Position numbers and translations under genes: made by a program. Below are positions 46,347-61,087 of a stretch of 64,000 nucleotides of DNA, piece by piece. How positions within the stretch are numbered: the stretch's first letter is position 1; every line of letters starts with the position of its first letter. The DNA lies in contig NZ_JNIK01000016.1 of NCBI RefSeq assembly GCF_000701365.1, forward strand, positions 186,001-250,000. The letters run 5' to 3'. The notes beneath the pieces are model-generated. The model saw only the letters and a program-made list of their open reading frames with translations. It made no database searches and was not told where the DNA came from. The stretch is from Blastococcus sp. URHD0036. Its GTDB lineage: Bacteria; Actinomycetota; Actinomycetes; Mycobacteriales; Geodermatophilaceae.

Positions 46347-46362
46347 GCTACTGGCCGGTAAC
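46347..46362. promoter_or_regulatory. Palindromic operator candidate at meaA/ecm
   Basis: GCTACT-GGCC-GGTAAC, an imperfect 16-bp palindrome, ends five bases before the TATCCT -10 box of the mutase gene and so covers the -35/spacer region. The same motif lies at 53321-53336 and 61072-61087. Position suggests repression of the mutase promoter. Confidence 0.55.
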
Positions 46363-46367
46363 CGCCC

Positions 46368-46373
46368 TATCCT
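46368..46373 (+). promoter_or_regulatory. -10 box, leaderless mutase promoter
   Basis: TATCCT, six bases, then the ATG at 46380, with no Shine-Dalgarno sequence. Confidence 0.55.
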
Positions 46374-46379
46374 CCCTCC

Positions 46380-48407
46380 ATGCCGTTCCCCTCGTCGCCG
46401 GAGGAGCGCGACCGCCCCTGGGTCATGCGCACCTACGCGGGTCACTCCTCGCCTGCCGAGTCCAACGCCCTCTACCGCCGCAACCTGGCCAAGGGCCAGA
46501 CCGGTCTGTCGGTGGCCTTCGACCTCCCGACGCAGACCGGTTACGACCCCGACGACGAGCTCGCCGTCGGTGAGGTCGGCAAGGTCGGCGTCCCGGTCAC
46601 GCACATCGGCGACATGCGGGCGCTGTTCGACGGCATCCCCCTGGACGAGATGAACACGTCCATGACGATCAACGCCACGGCCATGTGGCTGCTCGCGCTC
46701 TACCAGGCGGTCGCCGAGGAGCACGGGCACGACGTCAGCAAGCTGGCCGGCACGACGCAGAACGACATCATCAAGGAGTACCTGTCGCGCGGGACCTACG
46801 TCTTCCCGCCCGGGCCCTCGATGCGGCTGATCACCGACATGGTCGCGTACACGGTGACGGCCATGCCGAAGTGGAACCCGACCAACATCTGCAGCTACCA
46901 CCTGCAGGAGGCCGGCGCGACGCCGGTGCAGGAGATCGCCTACGCGCTCTCCACCGCGATCGCCGTCCTCGACTCGGTGCGCGACTCCGGCCAGGTGCCG
47001 CAGGAGGCCTTCGGCGAGGTGGTCGCCCGCATCTCCTTCTTCGTGAACGCGGGTGTCCGCTTCGTGGAGGAGATGTGCAAGATGCGCGCCTTCACCCAGC
47101 TCTGGGACGAGCTGACGGAGGAGCGCTACGGCGTCGAGAACCCGAAGCACCGCCGGTTCCGCTACGGCGTCCAGGTCAACTCCCTCGGCCTCACCGAGGC
47201 GCAGCCGGAGAACAACGTCCAGCGCATCGTGCTGGAGATGCTCGCCGTGACCCTCTCCCGGGACTCCCGCGCCCGCGCCGTGCAGCTGCCGGCCTGGAAC
47301 GAGGCGCTCGGCCTGCCCCGCCCGTGGGACCAGCAGTGGTCGCTGCGGCTGCAGCAGGTGCTCGCCTACGAGACCGACCTGCTGGAGTACGACGACCTGT
47401 TCACCGGCTCGGTCGTCGTGGAGCAGAAGGTCGCCGACCTCGTCGAGGGTGCCCGCGCCGAGATGGCGCGGGTCGAGGAGATGGGCGGCGCGGTGGCCGC
47501 GGTCGAGTCCGGTTACATGAAGGGCCAGCTCGTGGCCTCGCTGGCCGAGCGGCGGCGGCGGATGGAGAGCGGCGACGACGTCGTCGTCGGCGTCAACAAG
47601 TTCGACAGCACCGAGCCCAACCCGCTCACCGCCGACCTCGACGCCGCGATCATGGTCGTCGACCCGGCGGTCGAGAACGCGGCCCAGGAGGCCGTCCGGA
47701 CGTGGCGCGCCGAGCGCGACCCGGAGCCGGTGGAGCGGGCGCTGGAGCGGCTGCGGCAGGCCGCCGGCACCGACGAGAACCTCATGGCGGCCACCCTCGA
47801 GTGCGCCCGGGCCGGCGTGACGACGGGGGAGTGGTCCGGGGTCCTGCGCGAGGTGTTCGGGGAGTACCGGGCGCCCACGGGCGTCTCGGCGGCATCCGGC
47901 GGCGGGGCGGGCGAGGGCCTGGCCGAGATCCGCGAGCGGGTGCGGTCCACCGGCGAGGAGCTGGGCGGCCGGCTGCGGTTCCTGGTCGGCAAGCCCGGCC
48001 TCGACGGCCACTCCAACGGCGCCGAGCAGATCGCGGTGCGGGCCCGGGACGCCGGCTTCGAGGTGGTCTACCAGGGCATCCGGCTCACGCCCGCCCAGAT
48101 TGTGTCGGCCGCCGTGGAGGAGGACGTGCACGTCGTCGGCCTGTCGGTGCTGTCGGGCTCGCACCTGCAGGTGGTGCCTGCGGTGCTGCGCGGCCTGAAG
48201 GAGGCCGGGCTGGACGACGTCCCGGTCGTGGTCGGCGGGATCGTGCCCGACAGCGACGCCCGGCGGCTGCGCGAGCAGGGCGTGGCCCGGGTGTTCACCC
48301 CGAAGGACTTCGGGCTGACCGACATCATGGGCGAGATCGTCGACGTCGTCCGCGCCGCCAACGGCCTCCCCGCCCACCCCGACGACCGGGTGCCCGCGCC
48401 GGCATAG
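46380..48407 (+). CDS. meaA: Ethylmalonyl-CoA mutase (MeaA/Ecm), B12-dependent
   Basis: A 675-residue mutase with TIM-barrel substrate domain and C-terminal B12 domain in one chain. The start RPWVMRTYAGHSSPAESNALYRRN is that of Ecm/MeaA and differs from methylmalonyl-CoA mutase large subunits. The barrel has GLSVAFDLPTQTGYD, GTTQNDIIKEYLSRGTY and NICSYHLQEAGATP. The B12 domain has the base-off motif GKPGLDGHSNGAEQIA (DxHxxG) with GLSVLSGSH and VGGIVP. It converts ethylmalonyl-CoA to methylsuccinyl-CoA in the ethylmalonyl-CoA pathway; the close relative in Streptomyces is MeaA. Partners here: adenosyltransferase, ccr, epimerase and meaB. Confidence 0.92.
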   Translation: MPFPSSPEERDRPWVMRTYAGHSSPAESNALYRRNLAKGQTGLSVAFDLPTQTGYDPDDELAVGEVGKVGVPVTHIGDMRALFDGIPLDEMNTSMTINATAMWLLALYQAVAEEHGHDVSKLAGTTQNDIIKEYLSRGTYVFPPGPSMRLITDMVAYTVTAMPKWNPTNICSYHLQEAGATPVQEIAYALSTAIAVLDSVRDSGQVPQEAFGEVVARISFFVNAGVRFVEEMCKMRAFTQLWDELTEERYGVENPKHRRFRYGVQVNSLGLTEAQPENNVQRIVLEMLAVTLSRDSRARAVQLPAWNEALGLPRPWDQQWSLRLQQVLAYETDLLEYDDLFTGSVVVEQKVADLVEGARAEMARVEEMGGAVAAVESGYMKGQLVASLAERRRRMESGDDVVVGVNKFDSTEPNPLTADLDAAIMVVDPAVENAAQEAVRTWRAERDPEPVERALERLRQAAGTDENLMAATLECARAGVTTGEWSGVLREVFGEYRAPTGVSAASGGGAGEGLAEIRERVRSTGEELGGRLRFLVGKPGLDGHSNGAEQIAVRARDAGFEVVYQGIRLTPAQIVSAAVEEDVHVVGLSVLSGSHLQVVPAVLRGLKEAGLDDVPVVVGGIVPDSDARRLREQGVARVFTPKDFGLTDIMGEIVDVVRAANGLPAHPDDRVPAPA

Positions 48408-48457
48408 AGTCCCGAGTTTTCGTGCCGGAACGTGTGTGCACGGTGACGCTCAGCGGT

Positions 48458-48463
48458 TAGCCT
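48458..48463 (+). promoter_or_regulatory. -10 box, leaderless GGDEF gene promoter
   Basis: TAGCCT, seven bases, then the ATG at 48471; no ribosome binding site. Confidence 0.5.
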
Positions 48464-48470
48464 GACCGGG

Positions 48471-49775
48471 ATGGAGTCACCCCGCAGCGCCGTCGCCGAC
48501 CCTGCCCGGCTCGCGGCTCTCGCCAGCTACCGGCTGGACGGCCACGCCGGGGACGACGACCTGGACGCGGTCGTCGCCCACATGGCGCGGGCCCTCGACG
48601 CGCCGATCGCGGTGATCAACCTGGTCGGCCCGGACCTGCAGTGCTACGCGGCCGAGATCGGCGTCGGGACGCCGTTCACCGAGGTGCCCGACGAGCTGTC
48701 GTTCTGCGCCTACGTGGTGGCCACCGGGGAGCCGCTCGCGGTCGACGACGCCCTGGCGCACCCGGTGTTCGCCGACAACCCGGCCGTGGCCGCCGGGGCG
48801 ATCCGGTCCTACCTCGGCGTCCCGCTGGTCGATGCGGACGGCTTCGTGCTGGGCTCGCTGGGGGTCTTCGACGACGACGTCCGCACCTTCGTCGACGCGG
48901 ACCTCGAGATCCTGCAGATCCAGGTCCGGCTGGTGCGCAGCGTGCTGTCGCTGCGCCGGCAGGTGGCCGCGCACCGGTGGGACGCTCGGCTGCTGGCACT
49001 GCAGAGCAGGGCGTTGGAGTCGGTCGCGACCGGCTGCCCGCTCGAGGAGGTCCTCGACCTGGTCGCCGCCACCGTGCGCGAGCTGGCCCCCGAGGCGGAC
49101 GGGCAGCAGCGGCTGGCCCTGGACGACACCGTGGCGCGGCTGTCCGCGATCGCCATCGACGCCGACGGCTGGCGCGGGGCCCTCACCCGTACCGCGCGCC
49201 AGGACCCGCTGACGGGGCTGGCCAACCGTGGTCACCTGCTGGAGGCCGGCCAGGAGGCGCTGTCGCCGCGCGGGGGCGCCGTCCTCTTCGTCGACGTCGA
49301 CCGGTTCAAGGAGGTCAACGACCGCGCCGGTCACGCCGTGGGCGACCAGTTGCTCGCCCGGCTGGCCGGGCGCCTGGAGTCGGGACTGGCCACGTTCCCC
49401 GGCGCGGTGGTCGGCCGGCTCGGCGGCGACGAGTTCGCGGTCGTGCTGCCCGGCCTGGGCTGGGACGACGCCGCCGCGGTCGGCGAGCGGCTGGTCAGCG
49501 AGCTGGTGGACCAGATCGAGGTGGGCCGGCGGACCGTGCGGGTCTCGGTGAGCATCGGGCTGGCCGTGGCCGAGCAGGGGACCACCTTCACCGACGTCCT
49601 GGCCGAGGCCGACCTGGCCATGTACGGCGCGAAGGCCCGCGGGCGGGGCCTGCTGCACGCGGGGAGCCGCGACGGCGGACTGCCGATGCCGCGGTCCGGC
49701 GGGTACGGCGTGCCGTCGCTGCCGTCGCTGCCGTCGCTGCCGGCGCAGGGTGCCCCGGGGCCCGGCACTCGCTAG
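48471..49775 (+). CDS. GAF-GGDEF diguanylate cyclase
   Basis: A 434-residue cytosolic protein. An N-terminal GAF domain (about 25-165, with [18 protein letters not shown] and [22 protein letters not shown]) is joined by a helical linker to a GGDEF domain (about 235-400, [14 protein letters not shown]), which makes cyclic di-GMP from GTP. No RxxD inhibitory site is seen five residues before GGDEF, so product inhibition may be lacking. The C-terminus has a [11 protein letters not shown] repeat from three 9-base units. The GAF ligand is unknown. Confidence 0.9.
49711..49740 (+). repeat. Short tandem repeat in the GGDEF gene tail
   Basis: Three in-frame copies of CCGTCGCTG encode Pro-Ser-Leu repeats just before the C-terminus. 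Slippage would change only the tail length. Confidence 0.6.
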
Positions 49776-49778
49776 CGT
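49773..49778 (+). promoter_or_regulatory. -10 box overlapping the upstream stop codon
   Basis: TAGCGT begins with the TAG stop of the GGDEF gene and ends six bases before the ATG at 49785. The next gene is therefore likely leaderless from its own promoter and not a simple operon partner. Confidence 0.5.
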
Positions 49779-49784
49779 CGGAGC

Positions 49785-50555
49785 ATGAGCGAGGGCGCAC
49801 CCCGGGTCGAGCGCGACGGCGACGTCGTCACCCTCACGATGTGCCGGCCCGCCCGGCGCAACGCGCTGTCCCGCGAGCACCTCACCCAGCTCCTGGCGGC
49901 GGTCACCGACGTCGGGGGGACCGACGCCGCGGGGCTCGTGCTGGCCGCCGAGGGGCCGGTGTTCAGCGCCGGCCACGACTTCGCCGACGTCTCCGGGCGC
50001 CCGCTGCCGGAGGTGCGCAGCCTGCTGGCGCTGTGCACCGAGCTCATGCAGACGCTGCAGCAGGTGCCGCAGGTCGTGCTCGCCCGCGTGCACGGGCTGG
50101 CGACCGCGGCCGGCTGCCAGCTGGTCGCCTCCTGCGACCTCGCCGTCGCCGCCGAGTCGGCCGGGTTCGCCGCTCCCGGCGGGAAGGGCGGCTGGTTCTG
50201 CCACACCCCGATGGTCGCGATCTCCCGCAACGTCGGCCGCAAGCGCGCCATGGAGCTGGCGCTGACCGGGGACGTGATCGACGCGCGGACCGCGCTGGAG
50301 TGGGGACTGGTCAACCGGGTCGTGCCCGACGGCGAGCTCGACGCCGCGGTCGCCGACCTGATGGCCCGGGCCACCCGCGGTTCCCGGGCCAGCAAGGCGT
50401 GGGGCCGGTCGACGATGTACGCCCAGCTGGACCGCCCCGAGCGCGACGCCTACGACGTCGCCGTCGAGGTGATGGCGGCGGCGAGCCAGTTGGACGGCGC
50501 CCGTGAGGGGATGGCCGCCTTCCTGGAGAAGCGCCCGCCGGTCTGGACCGACTGA
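49785..50555 (+). CDS. Crotonase-family protein, ECHDC3-like
   Basis: A 256-residue crotonase-fold protein with the CoA-binding FSAGHDFADVSG loop, HGLATAAGCQLVASCDLAVA and the GKGGWFCHTPMVAISRNVGRKRAMEL stretch seen in ECHDC3-type proteins. In enoyl-CoA hydratase two Glu act at the positions that here read Gln (GCQLV) and Gly (APGGKGG). It is thus unlikely to be a normal hydratase; the reaction is unknown. It could bind acyl-CoA or catalyse isomerisation or hydrolysis. Confidence 0.82.
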   Translation: MSEGAPRVERDGDVVTLTMCRPARRNALSREHLTQLLAAVTDVGGTDAAGLVLAAEGPVFSAGHDFADVSGRPLPEVRSLLALCTELMQTLQQVPQVVLARVHGLATAAGCQLVASCDLAVAAESAGFAAPGGKGGWFCHTPMVAISRNVGRKRAMELALTGDVIDARTALEWGLVNRVVPDGELDAAVADLMARATRGSRASKAWGRSTMYAQLDRPERDAYDVAVEVMAAASQLDGAREGMAAFLEKRPPVWTD

Positions 50556-50606
50556 CGCGGGACCCTCGTGCCCGGCCGGGTCCGCTCGGACGTCGTCGGA
50601 TAGAAA

Positions 50607-51143
50607 GTGCCGGTGACCGACGTGACCGAGTCCGACACCGGCTGGCTCTCCCCGGAGGAGATGGACGCCGCCCGTCAGCGGCTGCCGATCCTCTACGTGG
50701 ACGCGGTGCCCGTGCGGGTGGACGCGCAGGGGACGGTCACCGCCGTCGGGCTGCTGCTGCGGATGGGCGAGGACGGCCAGGTCAAGCGGGCCCTGGTGTC
50801 CGGCCGCGTGCTGTACCACGAGCGGGTGCGCTCGGCGCTGCTGCGCCACCTGGAGAAGGACCTCGGTCCGCTGGCGCTGCCGAGGGTCCCGCCGGCGCCG
50901 CAGCCGTTCACGATCGCGGAGTACTTCCCGACGCCCGGGGTGACGCCCTTCCACGACCCGCGGCAGCACGCGGTGTCGCTGGCCTACGTCGTCCCGGTCG
51001 AGGGCGACTGCGCGCCGCAGCAGGACGCGCTCGAGCTGACCTGGTTCACCCCGGACGAGGTGCGGGACCCGGCCGTGCTGGCCGAGCTGGCCGGCGGGCA
51101 GGGCACCCTGCTGCTCCAGGCGCTGGCCCACCTCGGCGCCTGA
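50607..51143 (+). CDS. NUDIX-like DUF4916 family protein
   Basis: A 178-residue protein of the actinobacterial DUF4916/NUDIX-fold group: LPILYVDAVPVRVD, VSGRVLYHERVRSALLRHLEKDLGPLALP and EYFPTPGVTPFHDPRQHAVSLAYVVPV are characteristic. A regular Nudix box (GX5EX7REUXEEXGU) is not intact, so hydrolase activity is doubtful. The start may be GTG 50607 or GTG 50613; a TAGAAA box ends six bases before the latter, which favours 50613 if the mRNA is leaderless. Confidence 0.8.
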   Translation: MPVTDVTESDTGWLSPEEMDAARQRLPILYVDAVPVRVDAQGTVTAVGLLLRMGEDGQVKRALVSGRVLYHERVRSALLRHLEKDLGPLALPRVPPAPQPFTIAEYFPTPGVTPFHDPRQHAVSLAYVVPVEGDCAPQQDALELTWFTPDEVRDPAVLAELAGGQGTLLLQALAHLGA

Positions 51144-51158
51144 GCGGGAGGGGCGGGG

Positions 51159-52037
51159 TCAGCCGCCGAGGTCGGCGCAGCCGGTCTCGTGCGGCAGGAG
51201 GGGGCGGAAGGTCAGCGCCCAGCGGGAGCCGTCCGCCGCGAGCCAGCCCGTGCGTGCGTTCGCACTGGCCGCCGCCTCCAGCACCGGTGCGAGGTCGGTG
51301 CCGGTCACGGTCAGGCAGGACAGGCCGAGCCCGGCCGCCAGCGGCTCGCCGGGAAGGGGCGGCCCGGGCCACGTGACGTCGGGCTGCGGCAGCTCCGGGT
51401 CGACGTCGCCGTCGGTCCACGGGCGGGTCACCACGGCCATGGTGGCGGGGGCGTAGGACTCGGCCGCCGCGTCGGTGGTCGCGGTCAGCGCGTCGAGCAG
51501 CTCCTGCAGCGCGGCGCGGCCCGCCCGCTGCTCGGGGGTCAGGCCGTCGTCGGCGCCGACGGACTCGGCGAGGGTGTAGACCTCGCGCACGTACGTGCCC
51601 TCGCCGGTGACCAGCGTGAAGCGGGTGGACGGCGCGTCCGCGATCGGCGGTGAGCCGAGGTCGGCGGTCTCCGCGACCCCGGCGGCCAGCGCCTGCTCGG
51701 CCAGCTGCTGGACGGTCTCCCCGGGGATCGGTGTCACCTGCACGTTGGGCAGCGCGGGTCCCGGGTAGATCGCGATGACCGGGCCCTCGGTGACGACCCG
51801 GCCGTCGGAGTAGACGCCGACCAGCGGCAGCCGGGAGGCCGTGGTGTCCGGGGTGACGAAGCCCCCGGTGTGCTCGACCAGGAGCACCAGGCTGCCGGCG
51901 GGCGGCAGGGACACCGGCGGGGACGACGACCCGGGGGACGCCGCGTCGCCGTCGTCGTCGGCCGGCCGGTCGGCGCAGGCGGCCAGCGCGAGCAGGGCGA
52001 GCACTGTGAGCGCCGCGCGCAGTGGGGTCCGGGTCAC
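51159..52037 (-). CDS. Putative lipoprotein
   Basis: A 292-residue exported protein. The N-terminus has a charged start, a hydrophobic stretch and the lipobox LALAAC (Cys near residue 21), so it should be lipid-anchored outside. A Ser/Pro/Asp-rich linker follows. The mature domain has a repeated beta-type pattern and a late pair of Cys (LGLSCLTV and [10 protein letters not shown]) that may form a disulphide. I do not recognise the family. The GTG at 52037 is the start that gives a proper signal peptide. It converges on the DUF4916 gene and is divergent from nucS. Confidence 0.8.
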
Positions 52038-52101
52038 ACCCGCAGGACGTCCACCGGCGCGTCCGGGTTCCCGCGGCGTCCCGGCCGCCCCGGGCGTCCC
52101 G

Positions 52102-52107
52102 TACCGT
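52102..52107 (+). promoter_or_regulatory. -10 box of nucS
   Basis: TACCGT ends eight bases before the GTG at 52116; no ribosome binding site, so the leader is at most a base or two. Confidence 0.45.
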
Positions 52108-52115
52108 CGCTCCCC

Positions 52116-52787
52116 GTGCGTCTGGTCATCGCCCGCTGCTCGGTCGACTACATCGGGCGGCTCACCGCCCACCTCCCCATGGCCTCGCGGCTGCTGCTGG
52201 TCAAGGCCGACGGCTCGGTGTCGGTGCACGCCGACGACCGCGCCTACAAGCCGTTGAACTGGATGAGCCCGCCGTGCTCCCTGCGCGAGGAGCTCGCCGA
52301 CGGGGCCGGCACCTGGACGGTCACGAACAAGGCCGGCGAGCAGCTGGTCATCACCATCGAGTCGGTGGAGCACGACTCCTCGCACGAGCTGGGCGTCGAC
52401 CCGGGCCTGCAGAAGGACGGCGTGGAGGCCGAGCTGCAACGCCTGCTGGCGCTGCACGTCGAGACCTTCGGTGACGGCTGGTCGCTGGTCCGCCGGGAGT
52501 TCCCGACGGCGATCGGCCCGGTCGACCTGCTCTGCCGGGACGCGAGCGGAGCGACGGTCGCCGTGGAGATCAAACGGCGGGGCGAGATCGACGGCGTCGA
52601 GCAGCTGACCCGCTACCTCGAGCTGCTCAACCGCGATCCGCTGCTCGCGCCGGTGAAGGGCGTCTTCGCCGCGCAGGAGATCAAGCCCCAGGCCCGCGTC
52701 CTCGCCGCCGACCGTGGCATCGACTGCGTGACCGTCGACTACGCCGTCCTCAAGGGGACCGACGACCCCTCCCAGCGGCTGTTCTAG
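52116..52787 (+). CDS. nucS: Mismatch-specific endonuclease NucS (EndoMS)
   Basis: A 223-residue nuclease of the MutS/MutL-independent mismatch repair pathway of actinobacteria and archaea. N-terminal DNA-binding/dimerisation domain begins [21 protein letters not shown]; the RecB-like nuclease core has GPVDLLCRD and [22 protein letters not shown], giving the Asp and Glu-x-Lys metal ligands. The protein ends in QRLF, matching the C-terminal beta-clamp binding motif of actinobacterial NucS. It cuts both strands at G:T and similar mismatches. The last 38 bases overlap the opposite kinase gene. Confidence 0.96.
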
Positions 52788-53271
52788 CCGCGAGGACCCC
52801 GAGCACCCGGTCGGCCACGTCGGCCACCGGTGCGCGGGTGTCGACCTCCGCGTCCGCCGTGGCCCGGAGCCGTGGCTCCACGACGGCGAGGTCGGCCAGG
52901 ACGCGTCGCCGCTCGCCCGCCGTCCGCCCGAAGTCGTTGGTGGTCCGCGTGGCCAGCCGCTCCAGCAGCACCTCGACCGGCGCGCTCAGCAGGACGACGG
53001 CCGCGAAGCGGGAGCGGAAGACCCCCTGGTTGGAGACGCAGCCGGACACGAACAGCGGCTCGTCCGGCAGCTCCTGCTCGTGCCGGGTGAGCAGCGCGTC
53101 GATGCGGTCCTCGCGCCACACGGTCTCCGGCTGCGACTCCTCCGCGCACCACCGCTCGGTGCTGTAGCCGTCGTCGTCGGTGTCGACGACGCGGAAGCCG
53201 CGCGCGGCCAGCTCGGCGAGCACCGTGGTCTTGCCGGCACCGGACATGCCCGTGAGGAGGACGGCGACCAC
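52750..53271 (-). CDS. Small P-loop kinase-like protein
   Basis: A 173-residue P-loop NTPase with Walker [10 protein letters not shown], a [10 protein letters not shown] segment like the substrate Asp of shikimate/gluconate-type kinases, [15 protein letters not shown] and a lid [18 protein letters not shown]. This looks like an AAA_18/kinase-type enzyme for a small metabolite or nucleoside; the substrate is unknown. The 3' end lies antisense over nucS by 38 bases. The GTG is leaderless by sequence and is divergent from the dehydrogenase gene, with the 53321 palindrome between them. Confidence 0.82.
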
Positions 53272-53277
53272 CCGCGC

Positions 53278-53283
53278 ACCGTA
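53278..53283 (-). promoter_or_regulatory. -10 box, leaderless kinase promoter
   Basis: On the minus strand TACGGT is followed by six bases and the GTG at 53271; no ribosome binding site. Confidence 0.5.
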
Positions 53284-53320
53284 GCCAGGCAGACGGGTCG
53301 GTGCTCGGGCCGGGACGCTC

Positions 53321-53336
53321 GTTACTCGCCAGTAAC
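53321..53336. promoter_or_regulatory. Perfect palindromic operator candidate
   Basis: GTTACT-CGCC-AGTAAC has perfect 6-bp arms. It lies 68 bases before the 3-hydroxyacyl-CoA dehydrogenase gene and 49 bases before the divergent kinase gene, at about the -35 region of the kinase promoter. It is the best copy of the motif also present at 46347 and 61072. Confidence 0.6.
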
Positions 53337-53404
53337 CCCGGTGAGCGGCGGGCTGCCCAGGGTGGGAGACTCCCGTCGATCAACGATCGGGAGGAGATGG
53401 CAGC

Positions 53405-55186
53405 GTGGCCAGAGAACTGACCGAGGTCGGCGTCGTCGGCCTGGGGACCATGGGCGCCGGGATCAGTGAGGTGCTCGCCCGCGCGGGCCTGTCGGTGACC
53501 GCCGTGGACGTCGACGACGACGCGGTCGCCCGCGGCCGGGGGCACGTCGAGCAGTCCACCGGGCGCGCGGTCAGCCGGGGCAAGCTGGAGGCGGCCGACC
53601 GGGACGAGATCCTGGGCCGCATCCGGTTCAGCACGTCGCTGGAGGACCTGGCGGAGGCCGAACTGGTCATCGAGGCCGTCCCCGAGCGGATGGAGCTGAA
53701 GACCGAGGTCTTCGGCAAGCTCGACGCGATCTGCCCGCCGGACACGATCCTGGCCACCAACACGTCCAGCCTCTCGGTCACCGAGCTGTCGGTGGCCACC
53801 GCCCGGCCCGGCCGCGTGATCGGGATGCACTTCTTCAACCCGGCGCCGGTGATGAAGCTCGTCGAGGTGGTGCGCACCGTCGTCACCGAGCCGTCGGTGG
53901 TCGAGGACGTCGAGGCGCTGGCCATCCGCCTGGACAAGGTCGACGTCACCATCGGCGACCGTGCCGGCTTCATCGCCAACGCGCTGCTGTTCGGCTACCT
54001 CAACCACGCGGTCTCCATGTACGAGGCCCGGTACGCCTCCCGCGAGGACATCGACGCGGCCATGCGGCTGGGCTGCGGCCTGCCGATGGGCCCGCTGGCG
54101 CTGATGGACCTGATCGGGATCGACACCGCCTACGAGATCCTCGACACGATGTACAAGCAGTCGCGCAACCGGCTGCACGCGCCCTCACCCGTCATCAAGC
54201 AGATGATGACGGCGGGGCTGCTGGGCCGGAAGTCCGGCCGGGGCTTCTACACCTACGCGCAGCGGGACTCCGCCGAGGTCGTCGCCGACGCGCTGACCCC
54301 GACGCCGGGCGGGGCCGCCGAGGGTGCACGGCCGGTGCAGCTGGTCGGCGTCATCGGCTCCGGGACCATGGCCACCGGCATCATCGAGGTCGTCGCCAAG
54401 GGCGGCTTCGACGTGGTCTTCCACGCCCGCTCGGCGGAGAAGGTCGCCGCCGTCGTCACGGCGCTGACCAAGTCGCTGGACAAGCAGGTCCAGCGCGGCC
54501 GTCTCGACGAGGCCGCCCGCGACGAGGCCCTGGGCCGGGTGCGGGGGACCACCGTCCTCGACGACATGGCCGACCGCGACCTCGTCATCGAGGCCGTCGT
54601 CGAGTCGCTGCCGGTCAAGGAGGCGCTGTTCGCCAACCTCGGCGAGATCGCCAAGCCCGGTGCCGTGCTCGCCACGACCACCTCGAGCCTGCCGGTCATC
54701 GAGTGCGCCCGGGCCAGCGGTCGCCCGGCCGACGTCGTCGGCATGCACTTCTTCAACCCGGCGCAGGTCATGAAGCTGGTCGAGGTCGTGTCCACGATCT
54801 CCACGGCGCCGGACGTGGCCGCCACCGTGCACGCGGTCTCGGCGAAGCTCAACAAGCACGCGGTCTCGTGCACCGACCGCGCCGGGTTCATCGTCAACGC
54901 GCTGCTGTTCCCGTACCTGAACGACGCGGTGAAGATGCTCGAGGCGCACTACGCGACCGCCGACGACATCGACGCCGCCATGAAGGTGGGCTGCGGGTAC
55001 CCGATGGGGCCGTTCGAGCTCCTCGACGTCGTCGGCCTCGACGTCTCGCTGGCGATCGAGCGGGAGCTCTACACCGAGTTCCGCGAGCCCGGGTTCGCCC
55101 CGGCCCCGCTGCTCGAGCACCTGGTCACCGCGGGCTACCTCGGCCGCAAGACCGGGCGCGGCTTCCGCGACCACGCCAGCCGCTGA
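53405..55186 (+). CDS. Tandem-duplicated 3-hydroxyacyl-CoA dehydrogenase
   Basis: A 593-residue protein made of two complete 3-hydroxyacyl-CoA dehydrogenase units (about 1-285 and 310-593). Both keep the NAD loop (GLGTMGAG and GSGTMATG), the His of GMHFFNPAPVMKLVEV / GMHFFNPAQVMKLVEV and the GRKSGRGFY / GRKTGRGF end. It oxidises (S)-3-hydroxyacyl-CoA, or in reverse makes 3-hydroxybutyryl-CoA from acetoacetyl-CoA. Such duplicated forms are common in actinobacteria. A GGGAGGAG ribosome binding site precedes the GTG. The upstream palindrome links it to the ccr and mutase genes. Confidence 0.93.
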   Translation: MARELTEVGVVGLGTMGAGISEVLARAGLSVTAVDVDDDAVARGRGHVEQSTGRAVSRGKLEAADRDEILGRIRFSTSLEDLAEAELVIEAVPERMELKTEVFGKLDAICPPDTILATNTSSLSVTELSVATARPGRVIGMHFFNPAPVMKLVEVVRTVVTEPSVVEDVEALAIRLDKVDVTIGDRAGFIANALLFGYLNHAVSMYEARYASREDIDAAMRLGCGLPMGPLALMDLIGIDTAYEILDTMYKQSRNRLHAPSPVIKQMMTAGLLGRKSGRGFYTYAQRDSAEVVADALTPTPGGAAEGARPVQLVGVIGSGTMATGIIEVVAKGGFDVVFHARSAEKVAAVVTALTKSLDKQVQRGRLDEAARDEALGRVRGTTVLDDMADRDLVIEAVVESLPVKEALFANLGEIAKPGAVLATTTSSLPVIECARASGRPADVVGMHFFNPAQVMKLVEVVSTISTAPDVAATVHAVSAKLNKHAVSCTDRAGFIVNALLFPYLNDAVKMLEAHYATADDIDAAMKVGCGYPMGPFELLDVVGLDVSLAIERELYTEFREPGFAPAPLLEHLVTAGYLGRKTGRGFRDHASR

Positions 55187-55189
55187 CCC

Positions 55190-55495
55190 GTGCCCCGACG
55201 GCGCGCACGGGCCGGGTCCCGTCCTGCCCGGACGGACCCGGCCCGGCGTGCCGAACGGGTGGAGGAGGCCGCCGACGGTGACTGGGTCGTCCGCTCGCTC
55301 ACCGGGGCGGCCAGCACCAAGAGCTACCGCTGCCCGGGGTGCGACCAGGAGATCCGGCCCGCGACGCCGCACCTGGTGACCTGGCCGGCCTACGCCCGTG
55401 ACTCCGACCTGGACCCGTGGGACACCGACTCGGCCGCGGACACCCGCCGGCACTGGCACACCGCCTGCTGGCGCGCCCGGGACCGCCGCCGCTGA
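55190..55495 (+). CDS. Small protein with Cys/His zinc-binding pattern
   Basis: A 101-residue basic protein with CPGC (residues 48-51) and a late RRHWHTACW, giving Cys and His residues spaced for one zinc, as in a group of actinobacterial proteins often annotated as ATP/GTP-binding. No P-loop is present, so that name is not supported. It starts at a GTG three bases after the dehydrogenase stop and is likely co-transcribed. Its function is unknown. Confidence 0.7.
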   Translation: MPRRRARAGSRPARTDPARRAERVEEAADGDWVVRSLTGAASTKSYRCPGCDQEIRPATPHLVTWPAYARDSDLDPWDTDSAADTRRHWHTACWRARDRRR

Positions 55496-55496
55496 C

Positions 55497-56162
55497 TCAG
55501 GTGGCGGAGGCGAAGACGACGACGTTGTCCCGGTAGCTGCGCACCGAGCGGTCGAAGTCGCCGCCGCAGGTGATGAGCCGCAGCTCCGCTCCGGTCGTGG
55601 GTCCGTACACCTCGTCGGTGGGGAACGCGTCCTTGGGGTGGCGCTCGACGCGGGTCACGGTGAACCGTCCCGTCGTCCCGTCCGCGCGGTCGACGAACAC
55701 CTCGTCGCCGGGGACCAGGTCACGGAGCCGCCAGAAGACCGCGGGACCGCGGGTGGAGTCCACGTGCCCGGCCAGCACCGCCGGCCCCACGTCGCCGGGA
55801 GCCGGCCCGCCGGTGAACCAGCCGGCCAGGTCGTAGTCGGCGGGGGTCTGCAACGCGCCGCTGCCGTCGATGCCCAACCGCTCCAGCGGGCTGTCGACGC
55901 CGATGCCCGGGACGCGGACCCGCACCGGCTCGGCGACCGCCCGGGTGGTCACCGCCGAGAGGACCACCGGCGGACCCGGCCGGGCTCCCGCGGCGGCCGG
56001 CTCCTCCGGGGTACCGGCGGGGGAGGGGCCGGGGGCGAGCAGCGCGACCGCACCGGCCACCACGGCGACCACGGCGAGCAGCAGGCGCACGGTCGCCGGC
56101 CGCCGCCAGCGCGGCACCCGGTGCCGGGACGCCGGCCGGCGGTGCCGCGCGGACGCCCGCAC
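55497..56162 (-). CDS. Class F sortase
   Basis: A 221-residue sortase with a short basic cytoplasmic start and one membrane helix (about 25-43). Catalytic residues are His133 (AGHVDS), Cys199 (LITCGG) and Arg211 (YRDN), in the class F arrangement with VPGIGVDSPLERLGID at the start of the barrel. It cleaves a sorting signal and anchors or releases surface proteins. The GTG at 56162 with GAGG upstream follows the DUF4397 gene by eight bases, so the two form an operon. Confidence 0.92.
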   Translation of the reverse strand: MRASARHRRPASRHRVPRWRRPATVRLLLAVVAVVAGAVALLAPGPSPAGTPEEPAAAGARPGPPVVLSAVTTRAVAEPVRVRVPGIGVDSPLERLGIDGSGALQTPADYDLAGWFTGGPAPGDVGPAVLAGHVDSTRGPAVFWRLRDLVPGDEVFVDRADGTTGRFTVTRVERHPKDAFPTDEVYGPTTGAELRLITCGGDFDRSVRSYRDNVVVFASAT

Positions 56163-56170
56163 CCGGCGCC

Positions 56171-57025
56171 TCAGGAGCCGGTCGAGTGCCGGCCGGCCGG
56201 AACGCGGCGGCCGGTCCGGCCGGCGAGCGCCAGCAGACCGGTGACGACGGCGAGCGCGACCAGGAGACCCGTCCCGATCAGTGGCCACGGCGACGTGGCC
56301 GCGGCGCCTCCGGCACCGGCCTCCACGCCCCCGGCCGGCACGGCCTCCGTGCCGGCGGCGTCGAGCGTGGGCCGGACGGTCAGGCCGCCGTCGGGGGAGT
56401 CGAGGACGAGGACGCTGTAGACCGAGCCGCCGGCGACGTCCACCGGCAGGGAGACGGGCTGGCCGCCCGCCGGGGTCACCTGCAGCGTCGAGGCACCGGC
56501 GGGCACCTCGACGTAGTCGCTGGTGTCGGCGAACGCCAGGTCGCCGGCCACGGACGTGCCGTCGGCGAGGGTGACCCCCAGCTGCTCGGCCGATGCCGCG
56601 GCGGCCACCACGCGCACGCGGGCCGTGCCGGGCGGCGGCGGGGTCAGGTCGTCCTCGAGCACCTCCAGGCCGAGGCTGGCGAACGGTCCGACACCGGCGA
56701 CGGTGCGCGCCTGGCCGGCGTCGACCTCGACCGTGGTGGAGAGCACCGGCGGGCTGCCCGGGTCGGCGCCGGCCTGCCGCATGCTGACCGCATACGTGCC
56801 GGGCGGCACCTGCTGGTAGTCCGAGACGGTGCCGTAGCCGACCCCGGGGAAGGTCTGGCCCGCGCCCGGCGAGGACACCGAGTCGACGTACACGTCGACC
56901 TCGGGGGTGTCCGGCGAGAGGTGGGCGAGCCGCAGCAGCCCGGTGTCGGCGGCCTGCGCCGTGGTCAGTGGCAGGGCGGTGCACAGCGCCGCGAGCAGCG
57001 CGACGACGACGGCACGGGTGATCCG
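56171..57025 (-). CDS. DUF4397 surface protein
   Basis: A 284-residue exported protein: signal peptide (about 1-27, ending AQA-AD), two DUF4397 repeats (LRLAHLSPDTPEVDVYVDSV and ARVRVVAAAASAEQLGVTL), then a Gly/Ala stretch and a C-terminal membrane helix with a basic end. The end is built like a sorting signal, yet no LPxTG is present, only SPWPLIGTG. It is paired with the class F sortase, its probable processing enzyme. The GTG at 57025 has AGGGGGAA upstream. Confidence 0.87.
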   Translation of the reverse strand, partial: RITRAVVVALLAALCTALPLTTAQAADTGLLRLAHLSPDTPEVDVYVDSVSSPGAGQTFPGVGYGTVSDYQQVPPGTYAVSMRQAGADPGSPPVLSTTVEVDAGQARTVAGVGPFASLGLEVLEDDLTPPPPGTARVRVVAAAASAEQLGVTLADGTSVAGDLAFADTSDYVEVPAGASTLQVTPAGGQPVSLPVDVAGGSVYSVLVLDSPDGGLTVRPTLDAAGTEAVPAGGVEAGAGGAAATSPWPLIGTGLLVALAVVTGLLALAGRTGRRVPAGRHSTGS

Positions 57026-57138
57026 CACGATGAGTTCCCCCTGGAGATGGTCCCGGCCCCCGTGACCGCTGCGGTGCCGTGGCGTCCGCTGCCCAGGACA
57101 ACGTGTACCCGCACGACGGCCGGTCCGCACGGCGACGG

Positions 57139-58110
57139 TCACGGGGTGACCGCCGCGACGACGGCGTCCGGGCCCGGGACGTAGTCGAACGCGATCAGGA
57201 CGCCGTCCCCGGTGACCTCCACGACGTCCGGGGCGAAGGGGGGCAGCTGCGCGTCGAGCCAGGCCACCAGGCGCTGGGTGGCCGCCCCGTCGGCCGGGAC
57301 CGGCTGCCCGCCCACGGAGTCGACGACGACCCGACGGGCGGGGGCGGCCCCCGGCTCCTCGCCCGGGAGCGGGGGGAAGGCCCACAGGCCGACGCCGTCC
57401 TGGGCGGTCAGGCCGGCGACGAGGGCCAGGAGGCGGGCATCGACGTCGGCGGTCTCCAGGACGGAGCGGGCGTTCCCCTCGACGCGCGTCGTGGGGTTCG
57501 CGAGCACGGCCGCGGCCAGGGTCTGCCGGCGCTCGAGCTGGTCGGCCGTCGGCTCGACGGGCGCCGGGTCGACGAGCAGCAACGGATCGGCCGACCCGTC
57601 CCCGGCGAAGCGGGCCAGGAGCCGGCTGCCCTCCGGTTGGGTCGTCGTCAGGGCCAGCGCCGGGGTGCCCGCGTCCCCGCGGCTGCCTGACTCCGGCAGG
57701 ACGGTGGGGTCCACGCCCGCCTGCACGAGCGCTGCGCGCACGTCCGGCTCGGCCGTGACGGTGCCCCCGGAGGGCAGCTCGGTGGCCAGCCAGTCCGTCA
57801 GCTCCACCGGGGGGCCGCCCGCGGCGGGCGCGGGGGAGGACCCGCCGTCGTCGTCCCGGACGAGGCTCACGACCAGCACCACCGCGAGGGCGACCACGGC
57901 GGCGACCACGGCGGCGAGCAGCGCCCAGCGACCGCGGCCGGCTCCGGAGCCGCCGCGGCGGTGGCGTGTCGACCGGCTCCCGGAGGGCGTGCCCGGGCTC
58001 TGCCACGCGACGGCACCCGCCGGGAGCTCCTCGGGCGCCGCGTGCCGGGGCCCGGGAGGGCGGGGGGTCCCCGGCTGTGGCGCCGGTGCGGCCCCGGAGG
58101 GGTCGTGCAC
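57139..58110 (-). CDS. Membrane-anchored protein of unknown function
   Basis: A 323-residue protein with a Pro-rich disordered N-terminus (about 1-65), one transmembrane helix (about 66-90) and an outside alpha/beta domain of about 230 residues with no catalytic motif I can name. Within it LERRQTLAAAVLANPTTRVEG and the closing FAPDVVEVTGDGVLIAFDYVPGP look structured. GGAGGA precedes the GTG at 58110. No family recognised. The gap to the DUF4397 gene (57026-57138) holds no gene. Confidence 0.75.
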   Translation of the reverse strand: MHDPSGAAPAPQPGTPRPPGPRHAAPEELPAGAVAWQSPGTPSGSRSTRHRRGGSGAGRGRWALLAAVVAAVVALAVVLVVSLVRDDDGGSSPAPAAGGPPVELTDWLATELPSGGTVTAEPDVRAALVQAGVDPTVLPESGSRGDAGTPALALTTTQPEGSRLLARFAGDGSADPLLLVDPAPVEPTADQLERRQTLAAAVLANPTTRVEGNARSVLETADVDARLLALVAGLTAQDGVGLWAFPPLPGEEPGAAPARRVVVDSVGGQPVPADGAATQRLVAWLDAQLPPFAPDVVEVTGDGVLIAFDYVPGPDAVVAAVTP

Positions 58111-58183
58111 GGTTCCTCCGTACCGCACCGGCTCCGTCGGGGCGCGGTGGAGCTGGGGTGCCCGGCCGGACGGCCGGAACGGG

Positions 58184-59557
58184 TCAGCGACGAGCGGCGG
58201 GCGCGGAGGCGTCGTTCTCGGCGCCCTCGGTGCGGGTGGCACCGGCGGCGGGCTCCTCCGTGCGCTTCGCCGCGTCGGCGGCGACGTCGGCAGCCGAGAC
58301 GGCCGGCTGGACGAGCGTCTGCGGCTCGGCCGGGCGCGAGGTCCCGGTGCCCGGCTGGGGGCGCACGACCGGCTGCGGGCCGCTGACCGGGCGGATGACC
58401 TGGGTCTGCTGGGCCGGGGGAGTGCTGACGTGGTCGCCGCTGACCGTCTGCATGGCGACCTGCGTGGTCGGCCCCTGCGGGGTGACGGCGGGCTGCGCAC
58501 CGGTCTGCGTGCGGTGCGCTCCGGTGCGCTGGACGGCGGGCTGCGCCGGCGGTGCGGGCGGACGGACGGGCTGACGTGCGGCGGCGGCCTCACCGGCTCC
58601 GGTGGCGGGCCCGCGGGCCGGTGCCGGCTGGTCCGGGGTCGCCTGCGCCGGAGCCCCCTGCTGGGGAGCCGTCTGCTGCGGGGGCGTCGGGGTGGGGGAG
58701 GTCTGGTGGGGGCGGGTCTGGTCACCGCTCGGGCGGGCCGGCTGCGGGGTCTGCTCGGCCGGGCGGTCACCGAGATCGGGCAGCGAGCCCAGCAGCCGGC
58801 GGGCCTCGAGCAGCCGGCCGGTCAGCTCGTCGCGGACGTTCCGGATGGCCTGGGCCGCGGCCTCGGCCTCGGCGACCATCTGGGCCGCGTGCTGCTCGGC
58901 AGCGGCCACCCGCTGGCGGGCGGCCTCGGTCGAGGCGCGGTCGCGCTCCTCCTCCAGGCGGGCGGCCTCCGTACGGCGCGCACGCTGGGTGAGCTCGAAG
59001 TCCTCCTCGACCTTGGCGCGGCGGGCCTGGGACTCGGCGTCCAGCCGGGCGACCTTCTCCTGCGCCTTGGCGACGAGCTCGTCGGCCCGGATCTGGGCCT
59101 TGGTGGCGATCTGCTCGGCGTTGTGCCGGGCCTCCGACAGCAGCCGCTCGACCTCGGCCTGCCCGGCGGCGTGCCGCTCGAGCATGGCGCGCTCCTCGGC
59201 GGCGGTCTGCTCGCGCAGTGCCTGGGCCTCCTGGGTGGCGGCCTGCCGGATCTCCGCGGCCTCCTCCTCGGCCAGCCGGAGCATGTGCGAGATCCGCTCG
59301 CTCATGTTCTCGAACGTCGTGGGACCGGCGCTCGCGGCCTTGCGGCGCAGCTGGTCGATCTCGCCGTGCATCGCCTGGAGCTGGCCGGCGAGGTCCGTCG
59401 AGCGGGTCATCGCCGCGTCGCGGTCGGCGAGCGCGACCCGGATGTCGGCCTCGAGCCGCTCGATCGTCTCCGCCACCTGGTGGCGGTCGAAGCCCCGCAG
59501 GACCACGTCGAACGAGTGCTGGGCCTCGCGCATCAGGTCGCGGCGGGGATCGGTCAT
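58184..59557 (-). CDS. DivIVA/Scy-FilP-like coiled-coil protein
   Basis: A 457-residue protein. The N-terminus (FDVVLRGFDRHQVAETIERLEADI) is a DivIVA-type start, then a long coiled coil with Ala/Glu/Arg heptads (about 60-265) and a disordered Gln/Pro/Thr-rich tail. Streptomyces Scy and FilP, cytoskeletal proteins of hyphal tips, have this build and, as I recall, also lie next to mce. A role in polar growth or cell shape is inferred. The ribosome binding site is GAGG; a TATCGT -10 box lies about 75 bases upstream. Confidence 0.82.
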   Translation of the reverse strand: MTDPRRDLMREAQHSFDVVLRGFDRHQVAETIERLEADIRVALADRDAAMTRSTDLAGQLQAMHGEIDQLRRKAASAGPTTFENMSERISHMLRLAEEEAAEIRQAATQEAQALREQTAAEERAMLERHAAGQAEVERLLSEARHNAEQIATKAQIRADELVAKAQEKVARLDAESQARRAKVEEDFELTQRARRTEAARLEEERDRASTEAARQRVAAAEQHAAQMVAEAEAAAQAIRNVRDELTGRLLEARRLLGSLPDLGDRPAEQTPQPARPSGDQTRPHQTSPTPTPPQQTAPQQGAPAQATPDQPAPARGPATGAGEAAAARQPVRPPAPPAQPAVQRTGAHRTQTGAQPAVTPQGPTTQVAMQTVSGDHVSTPPAQQTQVIRPVSGPQPVVRPQPGTGTSRPAEPQTLVQPAVSAADVAADAAKRTEEPAAGATRTEGAENDASAPAARR

Positions 59558-59629
59558 GCGGTCATCCTCGCAGAGTCTTCGGTGCTGGGCGGCGTGTCGG
59601 TCCGGGCCCGGCCCGGTCGCCGTGCCTCG

Positions 59630-59635
59630 ACGATA
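59630..59635 (-). promoter_or_regulatory. -10 box of the coiled-coil protein gene
   Basis: On the minus strand TATCGT lies just downstream of the ccr terminator and would give a leader of about 65 bases. No -35 element could be identified. Confidence 0.4.
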
Positions 59636-59651
59636 GAACGTGGAACTGTGA

Positions 59652-59681
59652 GGGGAGGTGCTCCCGGAGGAGCACCTCCCC
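59652..59681 (-). terminator. Strong hairpin terminator after ccr
   Basis: A perfect 13-bp stem, GGGGAGGTGCTCC (59652-59664) with GGAGCACCTCCCC (59669-59681) and a CGGA loop, begins five bases after the ccr stop codon. It should end ccr transcription and insulate the coiled-coil gene. No T run follows. Confidence 0.8.
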
Positions 59682-59686
59682 CTTCG

Positions 59687-61018
59687 TCACACGCCGCGGA
59701 AGCGGTTGATCGCGTCGATGTGCTTCTCGCGCTTCTCTGCGTCCTTGACGCCCAGGCCCTCCTCGGGGGCGAGGGTCAGGACGCCGACCTTGCCCTGGTG
59801 GGCGTTGCGGTGGACGTCGAGGGCGGCCTGGCCGACCTGCTCCATCGGGTAGACCTTCGACAGGGTCGGGTGGACGAGGCCCTTGTCGATGAGCCGGTTG
59901 GCCTCCCACGCCTCCTTGTAGTTGGCGAAGTGCGAGGAGAGGATCTTCTTGAGGTTCATCCAGAGGTAGCGGTTGTCGTACTGGTGCATGTAGCCGGTCG
60001 TGGACGCGCAGGTGACGATCGTGCCGCCCTTCTTGGCGACGTAGACGCTCGCGCCGAAGGTCTCCCGGCCGGGGTGCTCGAAGACGATGTCGACGTCCTC
60101 GCCGCCGGTCAGCTCACGGATCTTCTTCCCCAGCCGCTGCCACTCCTTGGGGTCCTGGGTGTTCTCGTCCTTCCAGAACTTGTACTGCTCCGCCGACCGG
60201 TCGATGACCAGCTCGGCGCCCATCGTGCGGACGATCTCGGCCTTCTCCGGGCTGGAGACCACGCAGACGGGGATGGCGCCGCCGTTGAGGGCCATCTGAG
60301 TGGCGTAGGACCCCAGGCCACCGGAGGCACCCCAGATCAGGACGGTGTCGCCCTGCTTCATGTTGGCGCCGTTGCGGCTGACCAGCTGCCGGTAGGCGGT
60401 GGAGTTCACCAGCCCGGGCGCGGCCGCCTCCTCCCAGGACAGGTGGGCGGGCTTGGGCATCAGCTGGTTGGACTTCACCAGGGCCAGCTCGGCCAGCCCG
60501 CCGAAGTTGGTCTCGAAGCCCCAGATCCGCTGCTGCGGGTCCATCATCGTGTCGTCGTGGCCGGCCGGGTCCTCCAGCTCCACCGACAGGCAGTGGGCGA
60601 CGACCTCGTCACCGGGCTTCCACTTGTTCACGCCCGGGCCCACGCGCAGCACGACACCGGCCAGGTCGGAGCCGACGACGTGGTAGGGCAGGTCGTGCTT
60701 CTTGGTGAGCTCGGAGACCCGGCCGTAGCGCTCCAGGAACCCGAACGTGGAGACCGGCTCGAAGATCGACGTCCACACGGTGTTGTAGTTCACCGAGGAC
60801 GCCATGACGGCCACGATCGCCTCGCCCGGGCCCAGCTCCGGGGTCGGCACCTCCTCGACGTGCAGCGACTTGCGCGGGTCCTTGTCCTTGGTGGCCAGCC
60901 CCTCGAACATGTCCTGCTCGTCCTTGCGGACGAGGACGGCACGGTAGGACTCCGGTACGGCCAGCCCTCCGATGTCGCTCAGCTGGTCGGCGAGGATGGC
61001 GTCCCTGATCTGGTCCAC
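59687..61018 (-). CDS. ccr: Crotonyl-CoA carboxylase/reductase
   Basis: A 443-residue MDR-family enzyme that reduces and carboxylates crotonyl-CoA to ethylmalonyl-CoA with NADPH and CO2, the key step of the ethylmalonyl-CoA pathway. Residues known to hold CO2 in Kitasatospora Ccr (Asn81, Phe170, Glu171, His365) are all conserved: Asn79 in VNYNTV, Phe168-Glu169 in WGFET and His363 in SSHFANY. The cofactor loop is IWGASGGLGSYATQ. It is thus a true carboxylase. Ccr also supplies ethylmalonyl-CoA to polyketide synthesis in other actinobacteria. Start GTG with GGGAG; a TAACAT -10 box overlaps the operator candidate. Confidence 0.96.
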   Translation of the reverse strand: MDQIRDAILADQLSDIGGLAVPESYRAVLVRKDEQDMFEGLATKDKDPRKSLHVEEVPTPELGPGEAIVAVMASSVNYNTVWTSIFEPVSTFGFLERYGRVSELTKKHDLPYHVVGSDLAGVVLRVGPGVNKWKPGDEVVAHCLSVELEDPAGHDDTMMDPQQRIWGFETNFGGLAELALVKSNQLMPKPAHLSWEEAAAPGLVNSTAYRQLVSRNGANMKQGDTVLIWGASGGLGSYATQMALNGGAIPVCVVSSPEKAEIVRTMGAELVIDRSAEQYKFWKDENTQDPKEWQRLGKKIRELTGGEDVDIVFEHPGRETFGASVYVAKKGGTIVTCASTTGYMHQYDNRYLWMNLKKILSSHFANYKEAWEANRLIDKGLVHPTLSKVYPMEQVGQAALDVHRNAHQGKVGVLTLAPEEGLGVKDAEKREKHIDAINRFRGV

Positions 61019-61069
61019 GGTGTCTCCCGGGTCTTCGTCGGCTCGGAGGAGGGGGTGCGGTGGGGGCAG

Positions 61070-61075
61070 ATGTTA
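61070..61075 (-). promoter_or_regulatory. Probable -10 box of ccr
   Basis: On the minus strand TAACAT overlaps the palindrome at 61072-61087 and would give a leader of about 45 bases with GGGAG before the GTG. Confidence 0.45.
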
Positions 61076-61087
61076 CTGACGGGTAGC
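61072..61087. promoter_or_regulatory. Palindromic operator candidate between ccr and phyH
   Basis: GTTACT-GACG-GGTAGC, two mismatches from perfect symmetry, overlaps the -10 box of ccr and lies 57 bases before the divergent dioxygenase -10 box. Binding here would block ccr and may touch both promoters. Confidence 0.55.

Follow-up and report, generated by a model that had tools for sequence, protein, structure and literature searches.

What regulon does a palindrome mark when it recurs before three genes of the ethylmalonyl-CoA (EMC) pathway, and which protein reads it? The question is raised by a 64,000-nucleotide stretch of Blastococcus sp. URHD0036 (Geodermatophilaceae; contig NZ_JNIK01000016.1, positions 186,001 to 250,000; hereafter the window), in which the consensus GYTACYN4RGTARC has three exact copies, one each before a meaA-type mutase gene, a two-copy hydroxyacyl-CoA dehydrogenase gene and ccr (Table 1). 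An initial annotation took the palindrome for the operator of a C4 acyl-CoA regulon. We propose instead that the palindrome serves as operator for a regulon of fatty-acid catabolism, and that it is most likely read by a TetR protein of the FasR clade acting as an acyl-CoA-relieved repressor, a reading to which we assign a probability of about 0.72. The sites, their target set, their conservation, the promoter geometry and the identity of the regulator's DNA-reading helix can be read directly from the DNA.

All three palindromes were found letter for letter where the initial annotation had placed them, and its statement that no other copy exists holds even with one mismatch allowed, as a scan of the whole window returned the same three places only (6 strand matches; 100 dinucleotide shuffles gave 0.18 on average and never more than 2). 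The three copies are thus far above chance. Across the whole genome (G000, 5.18 Mb in 19 contigs), GYTACYN4RGTARC occurs at 9 exact places and the narrower GYTACTN4RGTARC at 6, with none for either reversed pattern, which served as control. One-mismatch matches are mostly noise, since allowing one mismatch gave 44 places vs. 32 for the control. Fatty-acid or EMC genes lie downstream of seven of the nine exact sites, so that few exact matches (2/9) are unrelated, as the initial annotation required of a true operator. Several one-mismatch sites also precede genes of interest (Table 1), among them a tandem pair before a fadE5-like gene; the remaining one-mismatch sites inspected had no fatty-acid-type gene beside them.

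Within the family, the motif is present in all 38 genomes sampled, that of URHD0036 included (249 sites vs. 18 reversed), and exceeds the reversed pattern in 35 of them. From ten other genomes representing three genera, 60 sites were fetched by motif alone and labelled with G000 proteins by tblastn; this fetch took in neither the five sites listed for G173 nor the nine for G184, nor one of those listed for G166, nor any unlisted site. The same gene set was found downstream of 56 of the 60: ccr (9), fadA (8), etfB (8), etfD (8), meaA (7), mcl (5), the dehydrogenase (4), fadD/SRPBCC (3), fadE (2), acyl-CoA dehydrogenase (1) and phaZ (1, at 30% identity). The prediction that related species would keep the site 5' of meaA, ccr and the dehydrogenase gene is therefore borne out, and in the aligned promoters the palindrome is retained while the flanks drift. 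None of the 60 sites adjoins nfo, recR or the solute-binding protein gene, so the two unrelated exact sites of G000 are not conserved in this sample. Overall, these data support well a conserved operator regulon, and suggest that the operator belongs to fatty-acid catabolism at large, together with the assimilation of acetyl-CoA. Four sites (L155, L166, L186 and L191) received no label; two of them, L155:1571 and L166:1535, from two genera of the family, adjoin one shared glycosyltransferase-like gene, so named by resemblance and without an NCBIfam match.

As to the protein, a TetR_N search of G000 (150 of 179 candidates scored) yielded 77 matches. None lies inside the window, consistent with the earlier remark that the window holds no regulator gene, although the search covered the TetR family only. 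When the 44 listed sites were compared by eye with these 77 matches, only the FasR-clade gene on contig C15 (Table 1) had a site directly upstream (at most one mismatch), 11 bp before its start. The suggestion that a TetR-type regulator would fit is well supported. This gene carries a degenerate but conserved copy of the motif upstream. Its best PDB matches are 6O6P (192.7 bits) and 6O6N (178.3 bits), both entries of Mycobacterium tuberculosis FasR, with the next best at 70.0, and the DNA-reading helix-turn-helix (HTH) stretch MDEIADRAGVSKPVLYQHF is identical between the two proteins. FasR is also the first NCBIfam match (NF053731, a mycobacterial equivalog model), and because its 244.1 bits fall below the curated 330-bit cut-off we call the protein FasR-clade rather than FasR. 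Among 44 close fasR loci (FasR 78–94% identical; 43 titled Geodermatophilaceae, one an unverified Bacillus), the right arm of the fasR-promoter site is kept in all (GGTAAC in 41, GGTAGC in 3). Among 59 more distant fasR loci (upstream sequence available for 58), a site lies within 200 bp in 10, with at most one mismatch (two are exact), vs. 0 for the reversed and 0.2 for shuffled patterns; L112, from a divergent Geodermatophilaceae metagenome-assembled genome, has none.

A link to DNA known to be bound by FasR comes from its published co-crystal, whose oligonucleotide contains ACTCGCCAGTA, eleven bases identical to the window site at 53321 (PMC7382501). M. tuberculosis FasR is reported to bind three inverted repeats upstream of the fatty-acid synthase FAS-I (PMC7382501; PMC7652896) and to leave DNA upon long-chain acyl-CoA (PMC7382501). 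Scored with a matrix built from Geodermatophilaceae sites, the 25-base oligonucleotide is modest on its own (chance 0.003–0.006), because it truncates both sites. At a threshold score of 7 or more, four FAS-I promoters gave 9 matrix matches in 2.8 kb of upstream sequence vs. none in 13.8 kb of coding sequence, with 0.15 expected overall by shuffling. The homologous stretch 5' of FAS-I in G003 and G049 contains a pair of overlapping palindromes, located at −83 and −70 relative to the first in-frame start; the one at −70 scores low (3.3). FAS-I (PF08354) was present in all four family-f2 genomes tested, absent from G095, G002 and G018, and absent from all five Geodermatophilaceae genomes tested, such that the control of fas-acpS by mycobacterial FasR would have no counterpart in those five.

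The position of the sites within promoters bears on how such a protein might act. The right arm and the two bases after it spell TANNNT in 28/28 rows of the ccr, fadA and etfB promoters (for ccr, the T at +2 past the site is found in 10/10 promoters, that of the window among them), a possible −10 box within the operator itself. In the meaA, etfD and fadD promoters, a likely −10 box lies downstream of a complete palindrome; in those of fasR, the arm has the sequence GGTAACAT, roughly ten bases 5' of the ATG. Both −10 boxes of the initial annotation were recovered: TATCCT of meaA begins five bases past its site, and TAACAT of ccr overlaps the palindrome on the minus strand. The meaA site lies 20 bp from the start in 7/7 relatives' loci fetched, where the likely −10 box is TACACT or TAGACT; in the window, the meaA transcript is probably leaderless, as the ATG comes only six bases after the likely −10 box.

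These positions would fit repression by occlusion. Because the operators overlap or abut −10 boxes, we infer acyl-CoA-relieved repression; the putative binder is a FasR-clade protein, and its putative ligand acyl-CoA. When long-chain acyl-CoA is lacking, a regulator dimer would occupy or flank the −10 boxes and block RNA polymerase at the genes for beta-oxidation, electron-transfer flavoprotein (ETF) and EtfD, acyl-CoA synthetase, polyhydroxybutyrate (PHB) depolymerase and the EMC pathway, as well as at the regulator's own gene. When fatty acids arrive, acyl-CoA would free the regulator from DNA, and the genes that produce acetyl-CoA would come on together with those that assimilate it through the EMC pathway.

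Outside the family, the operator is found next to another acetyl-CoA route. Isocitrate lyase is absent from 9/9 Geodermatophilaceae genomes tested and present in 7/8 non-family genomes (G010 is without it), and two of these seven, G003 and G049, have an exact operator 5' of icl; none was found among the listed places of G031, G082, G095, G118 and G002 (one G118 site being unlisted). Exact tandem pairs 25 bp apart precede etfD in G003, G049 and G118 (L197, L217 and L209), and sites in these non-family genomes also precede etfB, fadE, fadA, thiolases, korA-like, sucC, citrate synthase, icd and mutA-like genes, some named by resemblance of the start only. By our reading, target-type regions make up 7/12 in G003, 7/12 in G049, 7/13 in G031, 5/8 in G118, 4/7 in G095, 3/7 in G010 (one being fasR) and 0/1 in G082, rates lower than within the family. 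One listed G048 site and five of six G082 sites were left out of the fetches. The operator may thus follow whichever acetyl-CoA route a genome uses, an exchange that we offer as a suggestion, since icl is a target in only 2/7.

Could the palindrome mark something narrower, or nothing beyond a promoter? Its presence at meaA, ccr, mcl and the dehydrogenase would suit a C4- or EMC-specific operator, yet beta-oxidation or storage genes stand behind 31 of the 60 family sites, and mycobacteria-like genomes have it 5' of etfD, etfB, fadE and, in two cases, icl. Hence, of the initial proposal, the conserved operator regulon stands (56/60 sites) and the C4 limit does not: it is too narrow because fadA, fadE, etfB, etfD, fadD, acyl-CoA dehydrogenase, mcl and phaZ share the operator, and we reject a C4-only regulon, now very improbable, on this target list. 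It is just as hard to credit that the arms are simply −10 boxes (TANNNT) and the palindrome incidental. The T at +2 in every one of the 28 ccr, fadA and etfB rows is what such an element would show, but both arms and their spacing are retained, and meaA, etfD and fadD combine the full palindrome with a separate, likely −10 box downstream.

Other readers of the operator deserve more weight. A gene near fadE in G003 and G049 is one that, from synteny, we take to be FdmR-like; it is 29–30% identical to the FasR of G000 and has SKPxLY in its recognition helix in common with it, and the G049 copy served as query. Using presence thresholds of our own choosing (E<1e-50 for FasR, about 99 bits for FdmR), we compared motif and control counts in a class sample of 148 genomes, dropping G010, G034 and G052, whose counts a dispersed repeat inflates. 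The motif outnumbered its control 521 to 235 in 126 FasR-bearing genomes, vs. 17 to 29 in 19 without FasR, a comparison that ignores phylogeny and in which 6 of the 19 FasR-negative genomes are less than 90% complete. Ownership of the operator by an FdmR-type repressor (Rv0238 family), with FasR a mere paralogue of similar specificity, seems improbable to us, even though the reported FdmR regulon is of the same kind (PMC12403877) and the FasR-negative G053, which has a motif excess (5/0), gives a 99-bit match to the query. No FdmR orthologue was seen in G000 among the 20 of 81 candidates scored, the sole match at E≤1e-20 being FasR itself (30%, 83.7 bits); the motif excess persists in 105 FasR-bearing genomes without an FdmR-query match of at least about 99 bits (374 vs. 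183); in four families without an FdmR orthologue, 9/20 fetched sites precede fadD, fadA, fadE, etfB, acyl-CoA dehydrogenase or thiolase genes; and the FdmR-like gene itself has no site (at most one mismatch) 5' of it in the G003 and G049 regions read. In mycobacteria themselves, the sites may be read by FasR or by FdmR. A reader of another kind, for instance one of the FasR paralogues of G000, is about equally doubtful: with 77 TetR_N matches the field is large, and it includes one TetR gene some 1.7 kb away from the acyl-CoA dehydrogenase site and another some 1.8 kb away from the fadE pair. No listed site stands directly upstream of any of these rival candidates, however, and the FAS-I promoters, a reported FasR target, carry the same word.

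Several findings nevertheless weigh against a FasR-clade reader, beyond the limits of the class comparison and the excess in G053. Only 25 of the 44 close loci have the complete fasR-promoter palindrome to within one mismatch (two mismatches in 13, three in 6). Its conserved arm, moreover, falls on a TAACAT −10 box, and that box by itself could account for the conservation. Among the distant fasR loci, 49/59 have no site of at most one mismatch within 200 bp, and the ten that do include mutual close relatives. G000 holds four FasR paralogues, two of which fall inside the FasR part of a tree that does not separate them cleanly (5/21 inner branches well supported, with a long-branch warning). 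Some FasR-bearing genomes lack a motif excess (G129, 4/4; G139, 5/6; G012, 1/1; G035, 0/0), and two of the nine exact G000 sites precede unrelated genes. Finally, mycobacterial FasR is reported as an activator, whereas the promoter geometry here suggests repression.

Two other palindromes were met in the survey. In three family-f2 genomes (L256:7417, L257:16719 and L258:19346), CTTACTC-N2-GAGTAAG lies just 5' of a thiolase gene close to fadE, and could be a distinct operator, perhaps that of FdmR. In the family-f12 genomes (G034, G052 and G010), pairs of the same palindrome as in the window stand 53 bp apart (e.g., L250:1493-1561 and L254:1495-1563), with 93 sites counted in G034, apparently a dispersed repeat imitating the operator.

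The features on which this account draws are collected in Table 1. The name meaA rests on context, as methylmalonyl-CoA mutase models match below their equivalog cut-off. Downstream of meaA, 63 bp away and in the same orientation, comes a GGDEF diguanylate cyclase gene (48471-49775), followed in turn by an enoyl-CoA hydratase gene. The dehydrogenase is one chain with the 3-hydroxybutyryl-CoA dehydrogenase domain set present twice. The PhyH-domain protein had no match in the nine relatives' ccr regions fetched, and is not a conserved neighbour of the operator.

Table 1. Features of the window (plain coordinates) and operator-like sites elsewhere in G000 (prefixed by contig).
Feature	Position	Strand	Remark
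Predicted operator GCTACTGGCCGGTAAC	46347..46362	+	immediately 5' of meaA −10 box
Likely −10 box TATCCT of meaA	46368..46373	+	putative assignment
B12-dependent acyl-CoA mutase, 675 aa, meaA (ethylmalonyl-CoA mutase) type	46380..48407	+	
Predicted operator GTTACTCGCCAGTAAC, perfect 6-bp arms	53321..53336	+	5' of dehydrogenase
Two-copy 3-hydroxyacyl/3-hydroxybutyryl-CoA dehydrogenase, 593 aa	53405..55186	+	same models match two stretches
ccr, crotonyl-CoA carboxylase/reductase	59687..61018	-	TIGR01751 607.5 bits, cut-off 378.55
Likely −10 box TAACAT of ccr	61070..61075	-	overlaps operator arm; putative assignment
Predicted operator GCTACCCGTCAGTAAC	61072..61087	-	ccr/phyH divergent region
PhyH-domain dioxygenase	61157..61966	+	PF05721, 84.8 bits
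FasR-clade TetR regulator gene	C15:107472-108110	-	about 78 kb outside window
One-mismatch site	C15:108122		5' of fasR-like gene
Exact site	C3:55216		5' of fadA
Exact site	C13:202269		5' of acyl-CoA dehydrogenase
Exact site	C18:35214		5' of EtfD-like iron-sulfur protein, named by resemblance (Pfam: 4Fe-4S domains only)
Exact site	C19:95696		divergent fadD/SRPBCC pair
Exact site	C11:434882		adjoins solute-binding protein and recR; looks unrelated
Exact site	C18:318766		adjoins nfo; looks unrelated
One-mismatch site	C15:280183		5' of etfB
Tandem one-mismatch pair, 23 bp apart	C18:87663 and 87686 (span 87663-87701)		5' of fadE5-like gene
One-mismatch site	C16:60130		5' of phaZ
One-mismatch site	C12:343143		5' of CitE/Mcl-like lyase
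One-mismatch site	C17:165800		5' of MlaF-like ATPase

If correct, this reading provides fatty-acid and EMC metabolism in Geodermatophilaceae with a probable regulator and a concrete list of targets, and suggests that FasR, known as an activator of FAS-I, sits in a clade that mainly governs the burning of fatty acids. It is tempting to go further, at odds somewhat short of even, and to see in the FasR clade an ancient acyl-CoA sensor, shared across the class Actinomycetia, which first served to repress fatty-acid catabolism, whose operator tends to stay with the acetyl-CoA assimilation route of each lineage (icl in some mycobacteria-like genomes, EMC in Geodermatophilaceae), and whose activation of FAS-I was a later recruitment in the genomes that bear it. 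The locus may then be a case of an operator kept while the controlled pathway is swapped. Our search of the open-licence literature found no account of the operator, of a catabolic FasR regulon or of an EMC regulator in Geodermatophilaceae. A TetR regulator of ccr does exist in an alphaproteobacterium, CcrR of Methylorubrum, as the activator of one gene.

Among characterized regulators, three were set aside: SCO3201, considered as a possible relative, whose reported site TGGCAGATTCTGCCA differs (PMC7324645), Rv0158, as the motif given in its report is unlike GYTACYN4RGTARC (PMC10501769), and, likewise, MftR (PMC8728441). RamB of Paracoccus similarly ties acetyl-CoA assimilation to CoA esters, but is described as an ScfR-family protein that uses two boxes with an 18-bp spacer and activates the glyoxylate cycle (PMC10370305). 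FdmR (Rv0238), reported as a long-chain acyl-CoA-responsive repressor of mycobacterial fatty-acid degradation, resembles the proposed system in regulatory logic and in the kind of target genes (PMC12403877), and differs in having no orthologue among the G000 candidates scored. FasR (Rv3208) is the closest solved relative, with its identical HTH stretch and the same operator word in FAS-I promoters, but in mycobacteria it is a TetR activator of fas-acpS, whereas the targets in Geodermatophilaceae are catabolic. The kind of system is thus already known; what is new is the regulator assignment, the target set and a possible exchange of routes.

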